From the NCBI GenBank assembly GCA_900315425.1, contig OMZA01000015.1, positions 1 to 39,861 of the forward strand: a stretch of DNA of 39,861 nt. The letters are read 5' to 3'. Of this stretch, positions 7,050 to 37,200 are shown piece after piece. This DNA comes from an uncultured Eubacteriales bacterium (GTDB lineage: Bacteria; Bacillota; Clostridia; Lachnospirales; Lachnospiraceae). How positions within the stretch are numbered: the stretch's first letter is position 1; every line of letters begins with the position of its first letter. The notes under the pieces were generated by a model. That model saw nothing but the letters and a program-made list of their open reading frames with translations, ran no database searches and was not told the origin of the DNA. Both the position numbers and the translations under genes were made by a program.

Positions 7050-9251
7050 TTATAAGTGTAACACGCGGTCTCGTATTTCCTGAGTTCTACCCTGATTCCA
7101 ATATTGTGTGCCGATGTAGCCACAAGTTCTTCTGGCAACATTCATCTTGTCCTGATCTCTGTTGCCACAATTTGGGCATTCCCATACAAGTTTTCCATCA
7201 GCGTCATTTACGATTTTGATTTCTCCATCATAACCGCACACCTGACAGAAATCACTTTTGGTATTAAGTTCCGCATACATAATATTATCATAGATGTATC
7301 TCATTACAGACATTACTGCATCCAAATTATCCTGAAGATCAGGAACTTCAACGTAGCTAATAGCTCCACCTGGAGAAAGTGCCTGAAATTCTGACTCAAA
7401 TTTTAATTTAGAAAAAGCATCTATCTGTTCTGTAACATGTACATGGTAGCTGTTAGTAATGTAATTTCTATCTGTAACACCTTCGATTTTACCAAATCTC
7501 TTTTGAAGGGATTTGGCAAATTTATAAGTAGTGGATTCCAATGGTGTTCCGTAAATACTAAAGTCTATATTTGTGGCAGCCTTCCATGAATTACAAGCGT
7601 CATTTAAGCGATGCATAACTTTAAGTGCAAATTCTTTTCCTTCTGAATCAACATGTGAGTGGCCGGTCATATATTTTGTACATTCATACAAACCAGCATA
7701 TCCTAAAGAAATAGTAGAATATCCGTCATACAACAGTCTGTCAATGGTTTCGCCTTTCTTTAGTCTTGCCAAAGCGCCATGCTGCCAAAGAACGGGTGCT
7801 ACATCAGAAGGAGTTCCCTTAAGTCTTTCATGTCTGCACATAAGGGCTCTATAGCATAGGTCAAGTCGTTCATCCATAATCTGCCAGAATTTGTTTTCGT
7901 CTTTAAAAGAAGAACATGCAACATCTACGAGATTAAGAGTTACAACCCCCTGATTAAATCTTCCGTAATATTTGTGTTTATTATCCTGATAATTTTTTGC
8001 ATGGGCAATATTTCCAATACCTTTATCTGTGAATCTATCAGGAGTAAGGAAACTTCTACATCCCATACATGGATATACATCTCCTTTAAGTTCCTTCATC
8101 ACCTTTGCAGAAATGTAATCCGGTACCATACGTTTTGCAGTACATTTAGCAGCAAGTTCGGTAAGGTAGTAGTATTTACTATCCGGGTTCACATTGTCTT
8201 CATCAAGAACATATATAAGCTTAGGGAAAGCAGGAGTAATATACTGCCCATTTTCATTTTTAATTCCCTTTATACGTTGCTTTAAGACTTCTTCAATAAC
8301 CATTGCCAGGTCATCTCTTGCCTGTCCGGGAGCTACCTCATCCAGATACATAAATATTGTAATGAAAGGTGCCTGTCCATTGGTTGTCATAAGGGTTATA
8401 ACCTGGTATTGAATCATCTGGACACCTTGCTTAACTTCTCGTTTGACACGCATCTCAGCCATGGTGTTGATTTTATCTTCATCAATAGGAAGATTAGTAG
8501 CCATCATTTCTTCTCGAATCTCATTACGAATCTTCTGACGACTAACGTCAACAAAAGGAATCAAGTGAGAAAGAGTGATACTCTGTCCTCCATACTGGTT
8601 AGATGCAATCTGGGCAATGCTTTGGGTTGCCACATTACATGCAGTAAAAAATGAACGAGGTTTATCAATGGTAGTTTCACTGACAACGGTTCCATTTTCC
8701 AACATATCTTCAAGATTTATAAGGCAACAGTTGTGCATATGCTGTGCAAAATAGTCTGCATCATGAAAGTGAATAATTCCTTTTTCGTGAGCTTCATAAA
8801 TATCCTCTGGTATAAGGAATCTCTTTGTTATATCCTTACTAACTTCCCCAGCCATGTAATCACGCTGAACACTGTTTACCATAGGATTTTTATTGGAATT
8901 TTCCTGTTTAACCTCTTCATTGTCAAATTCAAGAAGACTAAGAATCTGTTCATCAGTGGTATTAGATTTTCTAACTAAGGCATGTTTATATCTGTAAGTA
9001 ATATAATTTCTAGCTACCTTATAGGCCTTTTGCGCCATAATCTCGTTTTCCACAATATCCTGAATTTCTTCTACGTTAAGAGCCCTGTCTACACTACGGC
9101 AGGCAGATTCAACATTCCTTGAAATAGTATCAACTTGTTCATCCGAGAGACGATCACTAAAAATAACACTATTATTAGCTTTTACAATAGCTGCAGTAAT
9201 CTTTGATAAATCAAAAGGTACCTCAGCCCCACTTCGTTTAATAATCTTCAT
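7050..9251 (-). CDS. nrdD: Anaerobic (class III) ribonucleoside-triphosphate reductase
   Basis: A 733-residue glycyl-radical enzyme that reduces ribonucleoside triphosphates to deoxynucleotides under anoxia. Seen: an N-terminal ATP-cone (about residues 1-95, starting IIKRSGAEVPFD), the HMHNCCLINLEDML and YPCMGCRSFLTP core segments, a C-terminal zinc site with CQVCG and CPNCG pairs, and the radical loop RRTCGYIGT with Gly711 as the radical residue. The radical-SAM activase NrdG that must install the radical is not encoded in the window, although it is often next to nrdD. The gene has its own promoter, an NrdR-like box just upstream of the -35 and a structured leader shared with topB. It is divergent from yfbR, another deoxynucleotide gene. 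Confidence 0.97.
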   Translation of the reverse strand: MKIIKRSGAEVPFDLSKITAAIVKANNSVIFSDRLSDEQVDTISRNVESACRSVDRALNVEEIQDIVENEIMAQKAYKVARNYITYRYKHALVRKSNTTDEQILSLLEFDNEEVKQENSNKNPMVNSVQRDYMAGEVSKDITKRFLIPEDIYEAHEKGIIHFHDADYFAQHMHNCCLINLEDMLENGTVVSETTIDKPRSFFTACNVATQSIAQIASNQYGGQSITLSHLIPFVDVSRQKIRNEIREEMMATNLPIDEDKINTMAEMRVKREVKQGVQMIQYQVITLMTTNGQAPFITIFMYLDEVAPGQARDDLAMVIEEVLKQRIKGIKNENGQYITPAFPKLIYVLDEDNVNPDSKYYYLTELAAKCTAKRMVPDYISAKVMKELKGDVYPCMGCRSFLTPDRFTDKGIGNIAHAKNYQDNKHKYYGRFNQGVVTLNLVDVACSSFKDENKFWQIMDERLDLCYRALMCRHERLKGTPSDVAPVLWQHGALARLKKGETIDRLLYDGYSTISLGYAGLYECTKYMTGHSHVDSEGKEFALKVMHRLNDACNSWKAATNIDFSIYGTPLESTTYKFAKSLQKRFGKIEGVTDRNYITNSYHVHVTEQIDAFSKLKFESEFQALSPGGAISYVEVPDLQDNLDAVMSVMRYIYDNIMYAELNTKSDFCQVCGYDGEIKIVNDADGKLVWECPNCGNRDQDKMNVARRTCGYIGTQYWNQGRTQEIRDRVLHL

Positions 9252-9334
9252 AAAAACCTCTCCTATATGTAGTCGACCTTTGGGCGACTACCCGAATCCA
9301 CCCCGGCACAAAGCACAAGAAATGGGTGGAGTTT
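9252..9334 (-). promoter_or_regulatory. Structured 5' leader of nrdD, homologous to the topB leader
   Basis: On the minus strand this leader holds two palindromic parts. The first is a CCACCC/GGGTGG stem (9292-9330 region) around a GC-rich loop. The second is a hairpin at 9269-9291 with arms GTAGTCG-CC and GG-T-CGACTAC and a CAAA loop. The hairpin ends four bases before AGGAGAGG (9257-9264), which is five bases from the ATG. The whole block, including the spacing to the ribosome site, aligns with the leader of topB at 10556-10731. It begins close to the predicted transcription start near 9349, so it is almost the entire untranslated leader. It resembles no riboswitch I know. Confidence 0.6.
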
Positions 9335-9355
9335 ATTACGACCTAGAATATAAAA

Positions 9356-9384
9356 ATAATAACATTATGTAGATATTCAGTCAA
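9356..9384 (-). promoter_or_regulatory. nrdD promoter
   Basis: On the minus strand, TTGACT (9379-9384) and TATTAT (9356-9361) are separated by 17 bases. Predicted start near 9349, giving a leader of about 98 bases. Confidence 0.65.
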
Positions 9385-9391
9385 TGAAAAA

Positions 9392-9407
9392 ACACAATAT
9401 ATTGTGA
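9392..9407. promoter_or_regulatory. NrdR box upstream of nrdD
   Basis: ACACAATATATTGTGA fits the NrdR consensus (ACAC-A/T-ATATAT-A/T-GTGT) closely and is palindromic in 7 of 8 pairs. It lies eight bases upstream of the nrdD -35 box. NrdR is the dATP/ATP-sensing repressor of ribonucleotide reductase genes. Confidence 0.65.
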
Positions 9408-9459
9408 TTTTATAAATTTAGTTCATACCAGCATACAGTTGCCGTTACACCTTGGATAT

Positions 9460-9475
9460 ACACTGTATATAGAGT
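9460..9475. promoter_or_regulatory. Possible second, degenerate NrdR box
   Basis: ACACTGTATATAGAGT resembles an NrdR box with two deviations. It is 68 bases from the first box, whereas NrdR pairs are usually about three helix turns apart, so it may act for the divergent yfbR gene or be chance. The rest of the gap up to yfbR (9476-9618) shows only a TATAAT at 9566-9571 that could be the yfbR -10 box, without a good -35. Confidence 0.3.
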
Positions 9476-9618
9476 TTGTTTGCGGTCGAAAATTAAAAAA
9501 AAGCTTGTAGATTATATTAATAAAATTAAATAAAAAAGCATATGGAGTTATTTTACAAAAGAAGTTATAATAAAAAGTCGAGACTATTTGTTTAGCATTA
9601 CATGGTATTGGAGAAGAT

Positions 9619-10242
9619 ATGGATAATAAAAAGAAAGATTATAAATTTTTTGCAATGGTTTCTAGAATGAGATATATAAACAGATGGGAACTCATGCGAA
9701 ATACAATAGAAGAAAATATAGCAGAACATAGTTTGGATGTAAGCATTATTGCACATGCTTTAGGGGTTATTAATAATGTTTATTTTGGTGGAGATGTATC
9801 ACCAGATAAACTTGCAGTAGTAGCATTGTTTCATGATGTTCCGGAAGTTCTTACAGGAGATCTTCCGACACCTGTGAAATACTACACAGAGGAAACAAGA
9901 CATGCATATGCAGAAGTAGAAAAGTCAGCTGTTAGCAAGCTTCTTAGAAAATTGCCATCGGAAATGCAAGATTTGTATGCTAGTTATTTAGATGCATCTT
10001 ATGTTGATGACTATTCAAAAAAACTTCTGAAAGCTGCAGACAAGATATCTGCACTTATAAAGTGTGTAGAAGAAAAAAATATGGGAAATAAAGATTTCAT
10101 AAAAGCAGAGAAGACAACTAGAGATTATGTAGAAAAAATGAATTTAAAAGAAGCTAACTATTTTATGGAACACTTCTTTGGAGCATATAGTCTTACAATA
10201 GATGAACAATCGGAGACAGAAAGTACATTTTACAGTATTTAA
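9619..10242 (+). CDS. yfbR: 5'-deoxynucleotidase of the YfbR type (HD domain)
   Basis: 207 residues. YfbR removes the 5'-phosphate from deoxyribonucleoside monophosphates in the cytoplasm and helps balance dNTP pools. The HD-domain metal and catalytic residues are all present: His37 (ENIAEHSLDV), His72-Asp73 and Glu76 (ALFHDVPEVLTGD) and Asp141 (KAADKIS), together with the family stretch SRMRYINRWELMRN at 15-28 and TGDLPTPVKYY at 79-89. Spacing matches the E. coli enzyme with a constant four-residue shift. GGAGA lies seven bases before the ATG. Being divergent from nrdD with NrdR-like sites between them suggests shared dNTP control. The last codons run into the first unit of the 72-bp repeat array. 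Confidence 0.9.
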   Translation: MDNKKKDYKFFAMVSRMRYINRWELMRNTIEENIAEHSLDVSIIAHALGVINNVYFGGDVSPDKLAVVALFHDVPEVLTGDLPTPVKYYTEETRHAYAEVEKSAVSKLLRKLPSEMQDLYASYLDASYVDDYSKKLLKAADKISALIKCVEEKNMGNKDFIKAEKTTRDYVEKMNLKEANYFMEHFFGAYSLTIDEQSETESTFYSI

Positions 10243-10546
10243 GGGAAAAATCATAAATATACTGTCCTGCGTTAGATTGAGAATTAGCTTGTTTTGTGAA
10301 TAGTACAGCATATTGACAAAAAGTTCAAAATATACTGTTCTACTTCAGGGTTAGAATTAGGAAAGGTACAGTATTTAAGGTAAAAACTTCTAATATGCTG
10401 TCATACTTCAATATATATATATAATTAGATTACAAGTTAAACAGTAAAATTGTAAAAAAAACTTGATGTGCTGTAATATTTGGATTTATTTAGATTAGAA
10501 TAAAAATTTTAAACAGTAGAATTACAAAAAAATGTAAAAATACTGT
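10232..10546 (+). repeat. Five-copy degenerate tandem array (~72-bp period, 34-bp palindromic-ended cores)
   Basis: Five 34-base cores at 10232-10265, 10305-10338, 10368-10401, 10441-10474 and 10513-10546. All start with ACAGTA (second copy ACAGCA) and all end in CTGT, usually TACTGT, so the ends of each unit are complementary and could pair as a hairpin. The middle is A-rich. The gaps are 39, 29, 39 and 38 bases and share a TTAGA(A)TTAG-like motif, so the true unit is about 72 bases. The first core overlaps the yfbR stop codon and the last overlaps the probable topB promoter (TTACAA near 10522, TGTATA near 10544). No coding potential seen. Confidence 0.75.
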
Positions 10547-10555
10547 ATATATGAG

Positions 10556-10731
10556 GAACTCAACCCATTTAATGCGCTGTGCGCAGGGTGGAGCAAGGCA
10601 GTCGCCCAAAGGTCGACTACATAAGTCAGGTAGTCGCCCAAAGGCAGACTACATAAGCCAGGTAGTCGCCCAAAGGCGACTACATAAGCCAAGCAGTCGC
10701 CCAAAGGCGACTACATATACGGGAGGTCTTT
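10556..10731 (+). promoter_or_regulatory. Structured 5' leader of topB with four tandem hairpin repeats
   Basis: The first part (10556-10597) is an ACCC...GGGT stem enclosing a TGCGC-TGT-GCGCA hairpin and aligns with the start of the nrdD leader. Four tandem units of 31-32 bases follow at 10598, 10630, 10662 and 10693. Each is a hairpin with arms GTAGTCGCC and GGCGACTAC and a CAAA loop, then ATAAGCCAG as linker. Units 3 and 4 pair almost perfectly; units 1 and 2 have a one-base change or insertion in an arm. After the last hairpin comes CATATAC and the ribosome site GGGAGG (10721-10726), as in nrdD. Both strands read through as short repetitive peptides, which I regard as non-coding. Confidence 0.6.
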
Positions 10732-12744
10732 TTGGGAAAATCAGTTTTTATTGCTGAGAAGCCAAGTGTTGCAAGACAATTTGCGGATGCACTTAAGGTT
10801 TCAGGCAAAAGTTATAATGGATATATAGAAAATGACAATTACATTCTTACATGGTGCGTTGGTCATTTGGTAACTATGAGTTATCCGGATGCCTATGATC
10901 CGGCTTTGAAAAGTTGGAGCCTAGAGACGATTCCATTTATTCCAAAAGATTGGAAGTATCAAGTAATTGATGCTGTGAAAAGTCAATTTTTGGTTGTAAA
11001 AAAGATTTTAAATAGAGATGATGTAGATACTATCTATATTTGTACTGACTCGGGAAGAGAAGGAGAATATATATACAGGCTTGTAGATGCCATGGCTGGT
11101 GTAAAAGATAAAACCAGAAAAAGAGTATGGATAGATTCTCAAACTGAGGAAGAGATTCTCAAGGGTATAAAAAATGCCAAAGATTGGTCGGAATATGATA
11201 ATATCTCGGCAGCTGCATACTGTAGAGCAAAAGAAGATTATCTAATGGGAATTAATTTTTCAAGGGTATTGACCTTGAAATATGGTTACAGTATTAAGAA
11301 TTATTTAAAAATAGAAAAAAACATGGCAATATCTGTGGGACGAGTTATGACCTGTGTTTTAGGAATGATTGTCAAAAGGGAAAGAGAGATAAGAGCTTTT
11401 GAAGAAGTGCCATTTTATAGGGTTTTGGCGGACTTTAAGTGTACAGATGATTTCAATATAGAAGCGGAATGGAAAGTAAATGAGAATTCTAAATATTATA
11501 ACTCGCCACTTTTATATAAAGATAATGGATTCAAAAAAGAAGAGACAGCCAAAGAACTTATAAAGGCCCTGGAAGAAACGGGTAATATTGGAACAGTTAG
11601 CAGCATACAGAGAAAGCAGGAAAAAAAGAACCCTCCTTTGTTGTATAATCTTGCGGAGCTTCAAAATGACTGTTCAAAGTTATTTAAGATAAGTCCAGAT
11701 GAAACTCTTAAGGTGGTTCAGGAGTTATATGAAAAGAAATGTGTAACTTATCCTAGAACAGATGCCAGAGTTTTATCCAGTGCCATTGCCAAAGAGATTG
11801 ATAAGAATCTTAGAGGAGTGGGAAATCATCCTATGTTTAAAGAATACACAAATGAAATATTTGAAAGTGGTTCTTACAAAAATATAGGGAAAACAAAATA
11901 TACAAATGATAAACTAATTACAGACCATTATGCTATAATACCAACGGGGCAGGGCCTTAATAATTTAAACAGCATGCCTCCATTAAATGTTAAAGTATAT
12001 GAAGTTATTGTAAGAAGATTTTTAAGTATATTTTATCCGCCGGCGTTGTATTCCAAGGTAGCTCTTACATCCATAATGCCTATAAAAGAAGAGGAAGAAA
12101 AAAAATATACAGAAACCTTTAATGCAAACTTTAAAGTGCTTTCGGATAAAGGTTATTTGAAGGTGATGGAGTATTCATTTATAAAAGACAAGGGTGATGA
12201 AAAAAATGATTCAAATGCAGACATGGCAATTATCGAAAAACTAAAGAAACTTAAGAAAAACGATAACTTAGAATGTCTTAAAATGAGTATAAAAGAAGGA
12301 AAGACATCACCACCTAAGCGATATAATTCAGGAGCATTGATTCTTGCAATGGAAAATGCAGGACAGCTTATTGAAGATGAAGAGCTTAGAGAACAGATAA
12401 AGGGAAGTGGAATAGGAACAAGTGCTACCAGAGCTGAGATTATAAAGAAACTTGTAACGATAAAATACTTAAATCTCAATAAGAAAACTCAGATTATAAC
12501 TCCGACACAGTTAGGAGAAATGATATATGAAGTTGTTGATTGTTCTATAAAATATTTGTTGAATCCTGAGCTTACAGCATCTTGGGAAAAAGGACTTACA
12601 TATGTAGCAGAGGGAAGCATATCCTCAGAAGAATATATGGAAAAATTAGAGGGGTATGTCACAAGACGAACAAATGCGGTAAAAGCGGCTAATAATCAAT
12701 ATCAAATGAGACAAAGATTTGAGGAAGTATCAAAATATTATTAA
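10732..12744 (+). CDS. topB: DNA topoisomerase III (type IA)
   Basis: 670 residues. It relaxes and decatenates DNA through a transient 5'-phosphotyrosine break. Seen: the N-terminal TOPRIM domain with SVFIAEKPSVARQFA at the start and CTDSGREGEYIYR (DxD-like acidic motif), the topoisomerase body with EDYLMGINFSR and SVGRVMT, and the active-site motif VTYPRTDAR with Tyr340, then GIGTSATRAEIIKKL. It ends after the core fold, without C-terminal zinc ribbons. The start is a TTG at 10732, fixed by GGGAGG five bases upstream and by alignment of its leader with that of nrdD. It is first in an operon with the beta-helix protein and prfC. Plasmid copies of topB are common, but the neighbours here look chromosomal. 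Confidence 0.93.
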   Translation: MGKSVFIAEKPSVARQFADALKVSGKSYNGYIENDNYILTWCVGHLVTMSYPDAYDPALKSWSLETIPFIPKDWKYQVIDAVKSQFLVVKKILNRDDVDTIYICTDSGREGEYIYRLVDAMAGVKDKTRKRVWIDSQTEEEILKGIKNAKDWSEYDNISAAAYCRAKEDYLMGINFSRVLTLKYGYSIKNYLKIEKNMAISVGRVMTCVLGMIVKREREIRAFEEVPFYRVLADFKCTDDFNIEAEWKVNENSKYYNSPLLYKDNGFKKEETAKELIKALEETGNIGTVSSIQRKQEKKNPPLLYNLAELQNDCSKLFKISPDETLKVVQELYEKKCVTYPRTDARVLSSAIAKEIDKNLRGVGNHPMFKEYTNEIFESGSYKNIGKTKYTNDKLITDHYAIIPTGQGLNNLNSMPPLNVKVYEVIVRRFLSIFYPPALYSKVALTSIMPIKEEEEKKYTETFNANFKVLSDKGYLKVMEYSFIKDKGDEKNDSNADMAIIEKLKKLKKNDNLECLKMSIKEGKTSPPKRYNSGALILAMENAGQLIEDEELREQIKGSGIGTSATRAEIIKKLVTIKYLNLNKKTQIITPTQLGEMIYEVVDCSIKYLLNPELTASWEKGLTYVAEGSISSEEYMEKLEGYVTRRTNAVKAANNQYQMRQRFEEVSKYY

Positions 12745-27514: not shown

Positions 27515-28234
27515 ATGAACAAAAAGAAATTAATACTGCCGTTGGTGGTTTGCTTTATTGCTTTATCCACACCGGCAGTTTCGTATGCCCTGGATTATGA
27601 ATATGATGAATGGAACAGAGTTGTAAAGGTTACATATGATGATGGCAGTTATGTTACATACGAGTATGATAGTAACGGTAATATAACCGATATTGATGTA
27701 CATAAGGCAACTAAAGAAACAGAAAGTCATGTGGAAGAAAAGGAAACATCTGATAAAGATGTAATGTCAGGAGAAGAAAAAGAAACATCCGACAACAATG
27801 AAGAAAGCGGTAAGTATAATGAGACTACCGAAACAGATAATAGTTTGGAGACCACAGACAATAATTCCAATGAGTCGCAAGCAGATACCATAAAAGAAAA
27901 AACAACAAAAGAAAATACAGAGAAAAACACAGAGATTACAACAAAATCCAATAGTAATCATAACGATTCCGATAATAAAGAAACAAAGGCGGTTATTTCA
28001 AAAACAGAGAATGCTTCGGAAAATGAAAAAATTTCAAAAGATGAAAATTCTTTAGAAGAAGAAAATACTTCAAAAGATGAAAATACTTCAAAAAATGAAA
28101 CTGAAATAAAAAAAGAAAATAAGGATAAAAATATTTTTGTAAGAATATTTGAAAGTATCGTAAATTTTTTTAAGAAAATATTTAAAGCCATTGCAAAATT
28201 TTTTAGTAAATTATTTAAAGGAAAGTTATTATGA
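27515..28234 (+). CDS. Small secreted YD-repeat protein with amphipathic C-terminal helix
   Basis: 239 residues. A signal peptide (hydrophobic at about 6-19, cleavage after VSYA at 25) is followed at once by one to two YD repeats: DYEYDEWNRVVKV and YVTYEYDSNGNITDI (27-60). Residues 61-200 are a low-complexity Glu/Thr/Ser/Asn/Lys linker with near-repeats such as EEKETSD and SKDENTS. The last 35 residues alternate Phe/Ile with Lys (IFESIVNFFKKIFKAIAKFF...), which would form a strongly amphipathic, basic helix able to lie on a membrane. The stop overlaps the start of the giant YD gene (ATGA), so they are translationally coupled. I know no named family for this arrangement. It could be an accessory or anchoring partner, or a displaced fragment of a larger YD gene. 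Confidence 0.75.
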   Translation: MNKKKLILPLVVCFIALSTPAVSYALDYEYDEWNRVVKVTYDDGSYVTYEYDSNGNITDIDVHKATKETESHVEEKETSDKDVMSGEEKETSDNNEESGKYNETTETDNSLETTDNNSNESQADTIKEKTTKENTEKNTEITTKSNSNHNDSDNKETKAVISKTENASENEKISKDENSLEEENTSKDENTSKNETEIKKENKDKNIFVRIFESIVNFFKKIFKAIAKFFSKLFKGKLL

Positions 28235-31200
28235 AAAGAAATACACTTATTATGTTAAAGCGTATAATTGCAGTTATTTTATCTGTGATTATGCTTCCTA
28301 TCAGCTCTTATTCAGAGGGAATTACCAATTTAGTATATGCCGGTGAAAACTTAACAGTTGGAGAAACATCGGATATAACTGCAACGGATGAAGAATCATC
28401 TGTTGAAGGTTCAAATGAAATATCAAACGATGAAATTATTAATGAAAATGAAGACAATGACGATACGCTCAGTGAAGAAAATTCAGAGGCCTCGCTTTTA
28501 TCTGTTACCGGACAGATAAATGAGGCTTCTTGTGTTGTATTAAAATGGTTTGCATTGGATTCGGATGATGTTTCGTACAGAGTAATAAAAAATAATGTGC
28601 TTATAGACACACTTACATCAGACGATATAGATGAGAATAATTATCTTGTTTATAAAGACAGTGATACTGAAGCTTCAAAAACATATACCTATTACGTTGA
28701 AGCAGTCATATCGAATGAAACCGTTATTGCAAAAAGTTCGGATTTGATCATGGAAACTGCAGAAGATATGACTATTTCGTCTGATTATACGCTCGAATCT
28801 GATCTGACGGTTTATTCATTAAATCACACAGGCGGAACGATTGATCTTAACGGATATACACTAACGATATGTAATGATTATATAAGTTCAGGTAATACAT
28901 GTATTTCTTTTAATAAAGGTGCATTGATGTGCTATGGAAATTTTAATATTAATTATTACATAGGGCACATAATTATGAATAATGCCAATGATTATATGTA
29001 TGTCAGAGGTAATATCATAATGAGTAATTCCGGGTATAATACACTTAATAACGGACTTATTGAGGTTGAAGGGGACATTAATGTTAATCAGTTTGCTGCA
29101 AGTGGTTATCATACGGTTGTTTTATGCGGTGCAAAAAAACAGACTGTAACTATGCCGAAGGGTGCATATTTTAATACATTGGAGATTTGTAATTATTCCG
29201 AAGAAGGTATAAGTTTTACCAATGCACCTGATTATAACAGTCTGGTGTATACGGATGATGTAAATATCTCAATCTGTGGAACAAAGGTTAATCAGGGCAA
29301 AACACTATATGAGGACACTGTTATAGAAGGGGATTATGTTCTCGGTTACGGAACACTTAACCTTAACGGATACAGTTTAAGAGTCACGGGAAATTTGTAC
29401 CTTGCAGGCGGAAAACTTGAAGTCGGTGCCGGTAGTCTTAACGTAGATGGAGATCTTGTGGTTGCCGCTATATCATTTAATGAAGATGGAACTATCGATA
29501 AACAAAAAAGTTCAGCTATTTTGGATATGTCGGACGAAGAGGGATATGTTTTGATAAAAGGGGATTTTGAGACATATTCCGATAAAGATCATTCAGGGAG
29601 TTTATCTGCCGGTGTTATGGAGATAATGGGGAATATAAATGTAAATGCCGTTTATAATTCAAAGAATTTTTATGCATCCGGTACACATAAGGTATTGTTA
29701 TCGGGAGAAAAAGAACAGAGTATTTCTTTTAGTAATTCATCAGGCGATACAGGACACTTTAATAACTTAGAAATTAAAAACGTAAGTCAGGAAGGCGTTG
29801 TATTTGAAAGCAATAACGGAGTATACCCTTTGGCAACGGGCCTTGTAACAGATAATGGGAATAACGTATCGGGATTTCTTTCAATCAACGGATCCACGAC
29901 ATTTGCGGATGAACATTTCACAGGAAACGTGATCGTAAGGGAGAATTCCACACTTTCTCAGACCATGGCGGTTGACGGAGATTTTGTATTCGGTACAGAA
30001 TCTACAACATTTAACGGAGATATAAGTATCGGTGGAGATTTTACTTTTAACAGCATGTATTACTGGAGCTGCTATGTTTATTTCAATGGCGGTACAATAA
30101 AAGTAGCAGGAAATGTATATTCAAATAAATCATCGTATACTGCATGTTGGTATATGAATAACAGTGATGATGCAGAGCTTGACATAGAAGGGAATTTTAT
30201 AACCACAGGAGGATTTTCTTTTTCCGGATCGAAGGGAAAAATCTGTGTAGCAGGGGATGTATCTGTAAGCGGTACGCTTTCTTTTAGCGGAACAAATACA
30301 TTTATTTTGGATGGCGATAAACTTCAGAATGTAACAGTTTCAACAGGTCAGTTTTCTACGCTGGATATCAGAAATTACAGTGATGAAGGAATATTGTTTA
30401 CAACAGTGTATCCTGTAACAACTCTTATCAGAAATAACTGTAATATCAGCTATGGAGACGCAGAGGGTGTATTTGGATGGACTCTTGAAAAGGATGAGAT
30501 CATAGACGGTGATCTTATCATTCTTGATGATGTTTTGGATCTTAACGGACATACACTTACGGTAAAGGGAGATTTCATACAATATTCCGGAAATCTTATT
30601 ATTAACGGAGGAACTTTATATGTTGAAGGGAATTTAAGGCTGCAAAAAAGAACCGTTAATGATGAAGATAATGATAAACAATATGAATATTCAGATTCCG
30701 CAGCATCGCTTATAATGCAAAATGAAAATGACAGAGTATATGTGGGTGGAGATTTTATATCACAGACATCTGTTAACCAGAATGGAAAGATCACAGCGGG
30801 TATATTGGATGTTAAGGGTGATTTTACAGTCAATACCGTTAATGGTTTTATAGCAACAGAAAACAATAAAGTTATCCTGTCAGGTGATGATGAACAGACA
30901 GTAAAATTTAAAAGTTCATCAAGCAGTACTTCAAGATTTTTAAATCTCGAGATAACAAATAACAGTGAGGCAGGAGTAGTATTTGAGGGTAACAATGACG
31001 TATACCCTTTGGCAATGGGCCTTGTTACGGATAATGGGAATAACGTATCGGGATTTCTTTCCATTAACGGATTCACGACATTTGCGGATGAACATTTTAC
31101 GGGAAGCGTGATCGTAAGGGAGAATTCCACACTTTCTCAGACCATGGAGATTGACGGAGATTTTGTATTTGGTTCAGAATCTACAACATTTAACGGAGAT

Positions 31201-34200
31201 ATAAGTATCGGTGGAGATTTTACATTTAACAGCATGTATTACTGGTACTGTAATGTTAATATTAACGGCGGCTCAATAAAAGTAGCAGGAAATGTATATT
31301 CAAATAAATCATCGTATACTGCATGTTGGTATATGAATAACAGTGATGATGCAGAACTTGACATAGAAGGGGACTTTATAACCACGGGTGGATTTTCTTT
31401 TTCCGGTTCTAAGGGAAAAATTTATGTGGCAGGAGATATTTCTGTAAGCGGAAAACTTTCCTTTAACGGAACACATACCTTTATTTTGGATGGCAATAAA
31501 CTTCAGAATATAACATTTAACGAAAAAGCAGTTTTTTCTGTTTTGGATATTGAAAACCACAGTAAGGAGGGCATATGTTTTAATAAGATGCCGTTATATA
31601 CCACGCTTGTGAGAAATAACTGCAAGGTATCCGTAAGCGATCTGAAAATGGAACTCGGATGGACTTTGGCAGATGATGAAGTGTGGGACGGAGACCTTAT
31701 CATCTGGGAAGATGCTCTTAATCTGAACGGTCATACACTCACAGTATCAGGAAATCTTATCCTTGTCGGTGGTTTATTGGAACTTAACGGAGGAACACTT
31801 AATGTCAATGGAGATTTCAGATGGCAGAGTGTGACAAAGGGAAGTGATGATACTTTAGAATATGGTTCAAGTAATGCAGTGATTCACATGAATGAAAGTT
31901 CTGATAAGATCGTGGTGCATGGTGATTTTGTAATGGCACCGGCTTTATCAACATCCGGCTGTTTTACGGATGGGTTAATAGAACTTTACGGTGATTTTAC
32001 ACAGAGTGGATGTGCTTTTACCGGTACAGATAATAATACCGTTAAGTTTGCCGGTAATAAAACTCAAATAATAACTAATTCAAGTATGAGCACGTTTGCC
32101 AATCTGATAAATGAAAACACAGCCAATCTTCAAATAAACGGTGATATAAGAGCTACGGAAAGTGTGACAGATAACGGCATGGATATATCAGGAACCGGGT
32201 CACTTTACGTAAACAATGTCAATATGATTGAAAACGGTAAGTGGGATGGGAATCTTGTGACAGATGGTTCTGTAACACTTGATCGTTCTTTAAATATTGG
32301 TGGGTCTTTAAATATCAATAAGGATATTCATGTAAACGGGTATGGAATAACAGCAGAAAATATAAATGTCAACGATTATGGGATTCTGTATACGGAAAAG
32401 TCAGATATTATCTGTAGTAATGATTTTACGGTAAACAAATATGGCAGTTTTTACATGATAAATGATGAAGATTATATTTTGGTGGGAGGCAATTTTAATA
32501 TTTCATCACGTTATAACCACAGCGAAATGCTTACGGCCGGAATATTGGAGATACGAGGAGATTTCACACAATCTTCTTATGCTAATTTTATTGCAGGCGG
32601 AAGTCATACGACGATTCTTTCGCGAAAGAATAATACGACCGGAAGAGATTATATTCAGACAATATCATTTAATTCAAATGCGGGAACAACAAGGTTTAAT
32701 ACATTGGTGCTTAAGAAATCTCTTGATAACTATCATTTTAATAACGATATCGATACCATAGCAAATGAAGTGATCTATTCAATAGATGATTCAACATCGC
32801 CTACGGAAGTGTCATATATTGTAACGGAAGAAGTGACGGAAAAAAGCGTAAAAATAGCATTTGGAGGAGCGCAGGACAATGTTGGTATTCTCGGTTACGA
32901 GATATATCGTGATTCTAAACTTATAGGAGTAACAAGCAGCACATATTTTACCGATAACTCTGTGGAGCCTTCTTCAAAGTATACATATACGGTATATGCA
33001 TTTGATGATGAGAGAAACATGGCTTTATCATCACCTTCACTTGCAGTTGAGACTAAGCCAGATACTGAAGCGCCTTCTGTGCCGGGAAATTTATCTCTTG
33101 CTGCAAGGACAGGTTCATCGGTAACAATAACCTGGACAGGATCTTCAGACAATGTAAAAATTGCAGGATATAATGTATATCAGGATGGTGTGTTGGTATC
33201 CGCTCTTCAGTCATCTACATCATATAAAGCGGAAAATCTGCAGGCAATTTCAGTTTATAATTTTACCGTGGAGGCTGTAGATACCACCGGTAATGTTTCC
33301 GGAAAAACAGATGATCTTGAGACAGAGGTTTTTATGCCTCAGATTACAAGTATTACACCGAATGATAACAGTCATATCGGCGGTGAAACTGTTACATTAA
33401 ACGTATATTTTAAAAATGGCGGAAACAGTACCGGTAATAAGGTTACTATTGAAGAAAGTGATGGATTAGGAAAATGGAATGTTATAGCAGATAAACTCTC
33501 ACAGAAGAGATATAACGGAAACGTTTTATATGCAGCATTTACATGGGATATAAGTGATATATCGGGTGAAGAGACTAAAAATTTAAGATATACTTTAGTT
33601 GATGCTGACGGAAATACGGATGTTGAATACAGAACATATATTATTGACAGAAAGGCTCCGGCATCTGTAACTGAACTTAAAACCATTTCTGATAACGGTA
33701 ATGTATCCATCAGTTTTACCGCATCGGTAAGTGCTGATTGTACAAAATATGAGATATACAGAATTTGTAACGGATTAGAAAGTAAGATAGCTACTCTTAA
33801 CAGCAGATTTGAAACTTTATATACAGATTCAGATGTAACAGAGGGAGAGATATATACATACTATGTTTTAGCGTATGATCTGTATGGTAATTGCAGTATA
33901 GCTTCAGAAAGCGTGACTGCAGAAGTGAAAAAAGATGAGCTTCCGCCTGAGATCATTTCCATGACTCCGGGTGCCGGAAGAGTAAATGGAATAACAGATA
34001 TTTCCGTTACAGCCAAAGATAATAAGCAGCTTTTTGCAATAGGATTACAGTTACGGAATGAAGCAGAATCAGAGTGGACAGATATCGGTGAGATACAGAC
34101 AGAATCAGAAGCCACATTTAGTTTTGATACTACAGTGCTTGAGGATGGAATTTATTATTTTAATGCATATTGCATAGATACAAGCGGAAATAAGAGTGAT

Positions 34201-37200
34201 GCAGAGTTTCTCAGAAGATATGAAGTAGATAATACGGGAATATCAAAGATAAATATTAATAATGTTGAAGAAGCATCATCATATGTCAGGATTGAATGGG
34301 ACGATATAACAGAAGAGGATTTCGGATATTTTGTCGTTGAACAAAAAAGAGGAGATGAATACATCAGTATTGCAACGGTTACCGATACATTGGGTTATTA
34401 TGTTAAGGGGCTTTCTCCTGATACGGATTATTCCTTCAGAGTAGTGGGTTATGATAACCTGGGAAACAGAGGAGTTGAATCAGACGAGATAAATGTTAAA
34501 ACTATTGATGATACAATATCACCGTATATTACGGCAGTATATCCTACAGCGTCAAAATACAATTCAAAGCTTGAACTTTCCGTTGATGCAAAGGATAATG
34601 ACAGGATTTCATATGCCGTTTTCAGTGTGTCATTTGACGGAGAGACATTTACGGAATTGGCAAAAGTGGATGCGCTTACAGGAACTTCCAATGAAAAAAT
34701 AAGTTATACATACAGTTTGGATGAAGTGGAAGAAGGCTTAATTTACATAAAATATGAAGTTTATGATGCAAGCGGAAACAAGAATGCGTTAACTTCCGAA
34801 AATGAGGATATTGTAGTTGAATTTGAGGTTGATAAGACGGGTCCTTCCAAGGTAGAAGATCTAACTGTTCCAAATAATAACGGGTATGTGGAACTTTCAT
34901 GGGAGAAATCTGAAGATACTGATGTTGCGGGCTTTAATATTTACCGCGCGGATAATACTACGGGTATTTACAGTCTGTTAAAGGGAAATTTAACAACGAT
35001 CAATTACTATGACACAACGGTTAAGGTTGGAAGTACATATATCTATAAGGTTGCCGCGGTTGATATGGCAGGCAATGAGGGAGAATTCTCAGATGAAATA
35101 ATTGTAACGGTAGATAAGGATAGAGATGTTCCTGAGGTTCTTGGAATAACTCCGAAAGAAGGAAATACTGTTTCAAAAGATGCAACCATTAATGTTGTTG
35201 CGGCTGATAACGCAGGCGTAGCAAATGTCAAGATAGAGTATACCTGTGACGCATTTGATAATATATGGTACGAGATTGATGATGTAAGTACTCAGGGTAA
35301 TTATGTATATGCATCGGCTGTGTGGGATAATTCACAGCTTGAAGAGGGAAAATACAAAATAAGAGCCACGGCAACCGATATTTACGGAAATGTCAGTGAA
35401 ACGAAGCAGGTTACATATGTATTGGATACTACAGCGCCTGAAATCAAGACATTTGATGTAAGTACGGGACATTATGAAGTCATTTTAAATATGCAGACGG
35501 ATAGTGAAGGAGATTTTGATCATTATGAAATTCAGAGAAGAACTCCCGGAGAATCCGGTTTTGTAACATTAACTAAAACTGTTGATGATATATATACCGA
35601 TGCTGACATATCGGTTAATACCAATTATATTTACAGGGTTATCGCATATGATAAGAGTGGTAATAGTTTGGTATCAGATGAGGTTATCGGACATGCAGAT
35701 GATGTAGATACAACGGATCCTGTTGCAGTATTGCCGGAAAATATGGTTGCTCTTACAGGTATGGAGATAAGCCTTGATGGTTCGGAATCTTATGATAATG
35801 TGAGAGTTACTGAATATATCTGGGATATGGGTAACGGAGATGTGATCTACGGAGCACAGCCAAAGTATACATATGAGGAAGCCGGAGATTATACGGTTAT
35901 TCTTACGGTTAAAGATGTTTGCGGAAACAGTTCCAAAGCAAGTACAAGTATCAGAGTAGATGATATGAACGGATATGGACAGACCCTTGTTAAGATTGTT
36001 GACGAAGAGGGAAGTCCGATTCCTTATGCCCTCATATATTTGAAATCAGGTGATTCATCAGCCATGTCATTAAAGGCTGACAGTAAAGGTCTGGTAACAA
36101 TAGTAAACGAAACAGGTATCGCAACGATTGCGGCATATAAGACTAACTATCTTCCTGTTGAGATGGATATAATGATCAGTGAATACGAAGTAAAAGAATA
36201 TACCATGATCCTTAAAAAAGATGAGCTTGTGGTTGGGAGTCTCAGTGTTCACAGGATGTCACTTGAAGAGATGGTAGAGAATGGTGTGGATATTTCTGAT
36301 CCATCTAACTATCATTCGTTTGTATTCAGCCTTGATCTTGTATTTTCAAGACAGAATTACAAGATTGATTATTATTATGTAGGTGGCGGCGAAAGTTATT
36401 ATACTGCCGTAGGTCATGGTTTAAACGGTACTGACTCAAGCGGAGGAGGTGTCGGTGGCGGAAGAACGTTTGATATGCAGGTAATTGCGGGAGAAGAAAC
36501 AAAGCCTGTACTTGCATATTTAAGCACTGTTCAGGGTATAAGCTGGCTTAAGGAAATGTATGAGGTTGAGTTAGGTATTCTTAATCAGGCAGATTCCAAT
36601 TTTTATATTGAAGATTGTATGGCAACTCTTAATTATCCATCCGGAGTATCGCTTGCTGCAACAACTGCCGGTCAGACAAAAACTCAGAGTATGGGAACCA
36701 TTTATGGACAGCAGAGTAAGAGCGTTTCATGGATCTTAAGAGGAGATGAGATCGGAACATACACGGTATCGGCCGATTTTTCCGGTAAACTTATGCCTTT
36801 TGATACAACAGTATCAGCTCATTTTGATGCGGATACATCATTTTCCGTAAACGCCGGACAGGGTGTTAATATAACGGTCATGCCTGAATCCGATGCGTAT
36901 ATCGGAGAAGATTATTACATACAGTTTGCTGTGACAAATGGATCAAAGTATCCTTTGTATAATTTTTCAACAACAATAGGAGCTTATCAGGCGCCTGATT
37001 ATAAATACTCATGGACAGACGTCAGCACAGGAAAAACAGAAGAAAAGGTTGTTAATGTAAATGTCGCAAATCCAAGTAATGTCGGAAGTGCGATAGTGGT
37101 AAGTGACGGGCAGAGACTTACATTTAAAACATTGTATCCGGGACAGACATTTTATGGAACATATAAGACGAATTTTAGTGGCGGAGCTGAAGATGATGAC

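Follow-up and report, generated by a model that had tools for sequence, protein, structure and literature searches.

The window, a stretch of 39,861 nt, is the whole of one contig (C28) of a 2.05-Mb genome in 52 contigs (G000). It contains nrdD and topB, two unrelated DNA-synthesis genes that are divergently oriented on the minus and plus strands, respectively, with a yfbR-like gene between them (Table 1). Among 80 of the 589 nrdD relatives, most are from Lachnospiraceae, Butyrivibrio, Lachnospira, Roseburia, Eubacterium, and unclassified Clostridiales. The sequence-only reading placed the beginning of both leaders near a predicted transcription start. This stands for nrdD, which has a promoter-like site just upstream of its leader. 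The same consensus scan, which gave 10 sites where 7.3 were expected for the region, found none directly before the topB leader, where the nearest plus-strand candidate is located at 10398-10425. The nrdD upstream region also has a palindrome that resembles an NrdR box. Elsewhere in the window, a 3877-codon open frame on the plus strand (28231-39861) is internally repetitive and runs off the contig end; the open frame just before it (27515-28234) has an RHS repeat.

Both leaders are composed of an outer hairpin (P1) followed by one or more copies of a second hairpin (H), a linker, and the Shine-Dalgarno sequence. The H hairpin is 22-23 nt long. As the sequence-only reading had counted, there is one H before nrdD, and there are four in tandem before topB, which follow each other with a period of 32, 32, and 31 nt. 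The equal spacing that it had noted between hairpin and start was confirmed as well, the last hairpin base being 17 nt from the start codon in both leaders. The P1-type stem is present in both leaders, with one mismatch in topB. The arms of H are less uniform than described: of the five hairpins, only topB 3 and 4 have bulge-free arms, and nrdD, topB 1, and topB 2 are bulged. The extra base is in the 3' arm, and is a T in nrdD and topB 1 and an A in topB 2. The C.A mismatch of topB 1 and topB 4 is in both cases at the second pair of H.

Table 1. Features of the nrdD-topB region, and other loci of the repeat array family in the same genome (contig:positions).
Feature	Position	Strand	Basis or remark
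nrdD, anaerobic ribonucleotide reductase	7050..9251	-	Pfam scan: ATP cone, NRDD, glycyl radical
nrdD leader: P1, one H, Shine-Dalgarno	9252..9334	-	Alignment to topB leader
Shine-Dalgarno AGGAGAGG of nrdD	9257..9264	-	Read; aligned with topB counterpart
H of nrdD	9269..9291	-	One bulged U; predicted pair probability 1.0
P1 of nrdD	9297..9330	-	Outer arms 9324-9330 / 9297-9303; alignment, pair count
P1 of nrdD, inner arms	about 9313-9316 / 9306-9309	-	With wobble pairs
nrdD promoter-like site	9356..9384	-	Consensus scan; TTGACT-17-TATTAT, TG before second hexamer
Palindrome	9388..9411	-	Inverted repeat I9
yfbR-like 5'-deoxynucleotidase	9619..10242	+	HD domain
Tandem array of imperfect palindromes between yfbR and topB	10225..10560	+	Repeat searches
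topB leader: P1, four H, Shine-Dalgarno	10556..10731	+	Read, aligned
P1 of topB	10560..10592	+	Outer arms 10560-10566 / 10586-10592; one A.G mismatch
H1 of topB	10598..10620	+	Bulged U and C.A mismatch; predicted to form singly, probability about 0.12
H2 of topB	10630..10652	+	Bulged A; predicted probability 0.91
H3 of topB	10662..10683	+	Perfect 9-bp stem, CAAA loop; predicted to form singly, probability about 0.15
H4 of topB	10693..10714	+	C.A mismatch; predicted probability 0.89-0.99
Shine-Dalgarno GGGAGG of topB	10721..10726	+	Predicted mean unpaired probability 0.66
topB, topoisomerase	10732..12744	+	Toprim and Topoisom_bac domains; TTG start
Array locus	C20:22408-23015		
Array locus	C20:28908-29145		
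Array locus	C40:226-600		
Array locus	C10:3202-3566		
Array locus	C47:1006-1663		
Array locus	C25:53869-54244		
Array locus	C25:77953-78427		
Array locus	C19:2-366		
Array locus	C4:1-119		
Array locus	C18:19445-19872		
Array locus	C11:11-82		
Array locus	C24:1-60		

The two leaders are homologous, as the sequence-only reading had proposed. Their Smith-Waterman score is 70, whereas 500 dinucleotide-preserving shuffles scored 14.6 on average and 24 at most. In a search of the genome itself, nrdD 9266-9333 (minus strand) and topB 10557-10623 (plus strand) were 81% identical with an E-value of 9.8e-11, and a repeat scan covering the entire window (at least 26 nt) listed four inverted pairs, of which two are this leader pair. 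The 24-nt block AGTCGCCCAAAGGTCGACTACATA is present without a change at both 9266-9289 (minus strand) and 10600-10623 (plus strand), and the inner 13-mer AGTCGCCCAAAGG is identical in all five H copies. The last hairpin and the ribosome-binding site are 88% identical over 41 nt when a gap is allowed, and match at 26 of the 41 positions when it is not. In the ungapped alignment (pair I2), the TTG of topB falls at the position of the nrdD ATG. Divergence is unevenly distributed. The H core of nrdD and copy 1 of topB agree in 24 of 24 columns, and P1 together with the linker in 31 of 44 (Fisher p 0.0026), a contrast that was framed post hoc, once the alignment had been seen, and that gene conversion could mimic. 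This pattern hints at a constraint on H.

We then inspected the predicted folds. Compared with shuffles, folding is much stronger in the topB leader (z -4.96) and no better in the nrdD leader (z -0.05). In the full-length fold of the topB leader, H2 and H4 form with a probability of about 0.9 or more, H1 and H3 prefer pairing with each other, and P1 in the register of Table 1 has a probability of about 0.17, as alternatives compete with it; the outer pair of the nrdD P1 has one of about 0.83. Folding during transcription may favour the single hairpins. When 31 topB leaders are ranked by their strongest 30-nt hairpin, the one described here comes first. In the ranking of 105 nrdD leaders, the nrdD hairpin falls outside the top ten, and a strong hairpin is thus ordinary at that place. 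None of the nine H pairs shows a two-sided compensatory change among the five copies, a comparison of little power, and the sequence-only reading had named this outcome as one that counts against it. Two of the nine pairs are unpaired in some copies: pair 2 in two copies, and pair 7 in a single copy, which has its bulge at a different place. Between the two leaders, none of 19 pairs changes on both sides, a count from two sequences and likewise of low power; two of the three inner P1 pairs counted change on one side and still pair, while pairing is lost once in the outer part of P1 and once in H. With a C.A mismatch in two H copies and one-base bulges in three, the stem tolerates damage.

The Shine-Dalgarno sequences are predicted to be relatively open, with an unpaired probability of 0.56 before nrdD and 0.66 before topB (0.45-0.56 and 0.55, respectively, with other fold ends). 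These values equal or exceed those of 84 of 100 shuffles of the upstream part for nrdD, a weak excess, and of 96 of 100 for topB. Hence, the leaders look more like freeing the ribosome-binding site than hiding it. The sequence-only reading had suggested that the number of H units tunes translation or RNA stability. When 0, 1, 2, 3, or 4 units were placed before the Shine-Dalgarno sequence in silico, its openness stayed at 0.55-0.57, and a translation dial working through occlusion is therefore not predicted, which leaves protection of the 5' end or no function. A stem closing the 5' end onto the Shine-Dalgarno region was seen in one fold, did not recur in the same form with other ends, and was not retained. 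A terminator or attenuator was discarded as well, since 9240-10760 has no terminator-like site. A 68-codon open frame (10551-10757) across the tandem hairpins of topB was considered as a leader peptide, and was not taken as coding because its ATG precedes the homologous leader by 5 nt and the 31-32 period shifts the frame.

The leader pair is confined to one genome in all the data searched, which were sampled at one genome per species. The exact 13-mer core of H occurs at five sites of the genome, all within the nrdD and topB leaders and at fixed positions relative to the start codons; allowing up to two mismatches adds three further sites, compared with eight for the reversed control. The scatter of genome-wide copies that the sequence-only reading had set against its own proposal is thus not seen. 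The mobile-repeat alternative is unsupported, since there are five H copies at two loci and no other matches above chance level in the family or order genomes searched, and a dispersed mobile palindromic repeat was rejected. A covariance model of H (R1) matched three of 397 family genomes at an E-value of 0.01, with searches over 40 genomes run under stricter filters that lose weak matches. The matches in the own genome have E-values of 1.2e-11 or better; the scan listed three of its five H copies, an undercount presumably caused by overlap of adjacent copies in the model. The matches in the other two genomes (G352 and G264; 0.004-0.005) are at about the chance level for 397 genomes. By eye, a tRNA-like sequence follows one of these, and the other is a hairpin unlike H that precedes a gene resembling one for a secreted protein; both were rejected as relatives of H. 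The latter hairpin, GGTAATACCCCAAAGGGGATTACATA (L166, G264 C108:11172-11206), precedes the Shine-Dalgarno sequence of its gene in an H-like layout, at a chance-level match. A model of P1 and H (R2) matched one of 392 order genomes at an E-value of 0.001, namely the own genome, which was also the only one below 0.1 among nine genus genomes; the match in genome G002 has an E-value of 0.22 and is on another contig. The genome has a second nrdD (C22:52660-54855, minus strand), 66% identical to the nrdD of the window, and this gene is absent from the H and the P1 and H matches.

Comparison of the leaders with 106 nrdD and 31 topB upstream stretches, which include the own genome and one place fetched twice, gave best matches of 12-17 nt with E-values of at least 0.43 outside the own genome. 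In the family, order, and genus genomes searched, the leader is not conserved across species before the same genes. Of the 18 genomes in which both leaders could be compared, the own genome is the only one where the nrdD-topB leader score exceeds those of shuffles, and the sharing thus looks like a single recent copying event. No match was found among 50,697 phage records or 72,556 plasmid records (blastn, E-value 1), and the combined P1 and H pattern was not found in viral contigs. Two exact-pattern hits in viral contigs (L082 and L083) were rejected, as their 120-nt flanks have by eye no P1 or similar layout. A pattern scan of a collection of genome contigs, which may omit this genome and near ones, gave none. 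The sequence-only reading knew of no RNA family with this pattern, and its view holds at the gathering score of Rfam 15, where a tRNA is the sole match in the whole window and the leaders have none. Among the literature matches listed, none has a leader shared by nrdD and topB.

The region upstream of topB has a history of its own. In G002, nrdD is 83% identical and the order nrdD-yfbR-topB is kept in the same orientation, but the leader and the repeat array are both absent, and about 48 nt separate yfbR from topB. Over the eight genomes compared, in nine rows of which two are the same G002 place, this gap measures about -10 to 59 nt in five, 177-191 nt in two, and 493 nt here; the lengths are approximate, as they were measured from where the alignment of yfbR ends. 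The leader and the repeat array at 10225-10560 account for the additional length here. The start codon of 31 topB stretches is ATG in 22, TTG in two (the own one included), and GTG in two; the remaining five show a non-start codon, where the alignment end is inexact. The simplest reading of these sequences is that topB was separated from yfbR and then received a leader and ribosome-binding site homologous to those of nrdD. Copy 1 of topB shares the extra T with nrdD and copy 4 shares the linker, which fits a multiplication of H inside the topB leader or a loss of H from nrdD.

Other leaders in the comparison have hairpins of their own. The last 210 nt before topB in G004 (L053) contain two tandem copies of a different hairpin, with a repeat of 20 nt; the hairpin ends are GTG/CAC in one copy and GCG/CGC in the other, by eye a change that preserves pairing. 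The last 110 nt before nrdD in G017 (L027) form a different leader with a GAACCCA/TGGGTTC hairpin; here the 15-nt tandem repeat GAAGGTGGGTTTAC holds the Shine-Dalgarno sequence twice and could pair with the 5' arm of the hairpin.

The array between yfbR and topB belongs to a family with about a dozen other places in the same genome, several of them at contig ends, and with none in 59 other genomes (E-value 1e-5). Its palindromes have the form ACAGCAT...ATGCTGT and are 34 nt long in 57 of 65 pattern matches, a count that includes both strands and overlapping loci. The periods are often 62-63 and 72-73 bp, near six and seven helical turns. Its linkers are conserved too, and the family is therefore not CRISPR-like. 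Three array loci gave no Rfam match at the gathering score. The family could be an array of protein-binding or recombination sites.

We tentatively favour, at somewhat less than an even chance, a recently copied cassette of 5' UTR and ribosome-binding site that would act as a 5' stabiliser and insulator and whose hairpin was amplified at topB. The cassette, comprising P1, H, the linker, and the Shine-Dalgarno sequence up to the start codon, would have been copied in inverted orientation between nrdD and topB, recently in the history of the species and after, or together with, the separation of topB from yfbR by the array. H would then have been amplified to four copies at topB by tandem duplication, or cut to one at nrdD. 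In its RNA, the folded hairpins would stop 17 nt short of the start codon and keep the Shine-Dalgarno sequence relatively open. As a stabiliser, the hairpins would hinder decay that depends on the 5' end; as an insulator, they would keep upstream sequence off the ribosome-binding site. This is the most likely effect of such a cassette.

A neutral duplication is nearly as likely. In this case, about 80 bp were copied in inverted orientation between sites 1.3 kb apart, H was multiplied by replication slippage, and the copy matters only because it carried a usable ribosome-binding site to topB. The presence of the pair in one genome only and the damage to the stem without compensation are consistent with this, and so is the lack of a predicted effect of H number on the openness of the Shine-Dalgarno sequence. 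Genus mates (L053 and L055) have by eye other repeats or palindromes in the yfbR-topB gap, which indicates that the spot tolerates insertions. However, neutrality accounts less readily for a copied stretch that ends at the start codon with an identical 17-nt spacing, and for the uneven divergence between the H core and the rest. If the hairpins do have a function, it is also conceivable, though improbable, that the one-step copying of 5' UTR and ribosome-binding site made a post-transcriptional regulon of two genes, in which the number of H (one at nrdD and four at topB) would set the dose ratio of the two enzymes via an RNA-binding protein or RNase recognising the AGUCGCCCAAAGG hairpin. We regard it as similarly improbable that H acts at the DNA level, where a protein would bind it as a palindromic operator located downstream of the promoters. 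The period of the topB copies corresponds to about three helical turns and would put them on one face of the helix, and the inner 13-mer is the same in all five copies; but the half-site spacing is off by one base in three of the five, the genome has no further exact sites, and dimeric regulators seldom tolerate a changed half-site spacing.

The remaining explanations are less probable still. The 24-bp exact inverted repeats, which lie inside both leaders, flank a segment of about 1.3 kb consisting of the nrdD promoter, yfbR, and the array, and inversion of this segment would swap the upstream regions while leaving both leaders intact. Inverted repeats are where inverton finders start, according to PMC11892184. 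Nonetheless, recombination at these repeats is very unlikely, as gene order and orientation are unchanged in G002, and no recombinase was called among the 20 window proteins scanned against Pfam, two of which are without any family. About as unlikely, or slightly more so, is a translational switch or riboswitch whose leader hides the Shine-Dalgarno sequence in one state. In some folds the 5' end does base-pair with the Shine-Dalgarno region, but this pairing varies with the fold ends chosen, the Shine-Dalgarno sequence is more open than in most shuffles, and relatives in other species were not found in the family, order, and genus genomes searched. The lowest probability goes to a member or analogue of STAXI (RF01728), which may act as RNA or single-stranded DNA. 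PMC2864571 describes STAXI as a pseudoknot repeated in tandem close to genes for topoisomerase and other DNA-handling proteins, and places it in Enterobacteriales. The leader resembles it in having tandem hairpins near DNA-handling genes, four units before topB, and gave a match of 31.6 bits (E-value 1.3e-4) beside the topoisomerase gene. This match is below the gathering score of 40.5 bits and is on the strand opposite to topB, where the likeness amounts to tandem GC-rich hairpins with CUUUGG loops. Moreover, each of the three later units in the alignment lacks 9-10 nt of the unpaired sequence that connects the arms, and we infer that this sequence makes the STAXI pseudoknot, which the structure line of the model does not show. 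In contrast to the Enterobacteriales, the relatives of the nrdD of this genome are, among the matches listed, mostly Lachnospiraceae and other Clostridia.

The leader pair is known in kind, as hairpins in 5' UTRs, and new in arrangement. In horizontal regulatory transfer, or regulatory switching, the upstream region is replaced and the gene stays. Here, by contrast, the new leader is homologous to that of a neighbouring gene in the same genome. REP- and MITE-like dispersed repeats share with H the short palindromic units in intergenic DNA, but H has only five copies, in two leaders and at fixed distances from start codons. Stabilisers at the 5' end of mRNA include the 5' stem-loops of ompA and papA in Escherichia coli, the aprE leader of Bacillus subtilis, and STAB-SD. 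Such elements, the subject of studies cited in PMC3997798, are reported to lengthen the life of mRNA. The leaders described here resemble these elements in having, in the predicted fold, a stem-loop near a strong Shine-Dalgarno sequence, and differ in that one leader is common to two unrelated genes and its hairpin is repeated in tandem before topB.

If the duplication is neutral, it is a clean example of a gene that, once split from its upstream neighbour, acquired a new 5' UTR. The copied leader may affect how the messages of nrdD and topB are kept and read, a role that is putative. If it is functional, the locus would show, caught in the act, how two unrelated genes are wired together by copying a leader and ribosome-binding site instead of a promoter, with the hairpin number as a possible dial.
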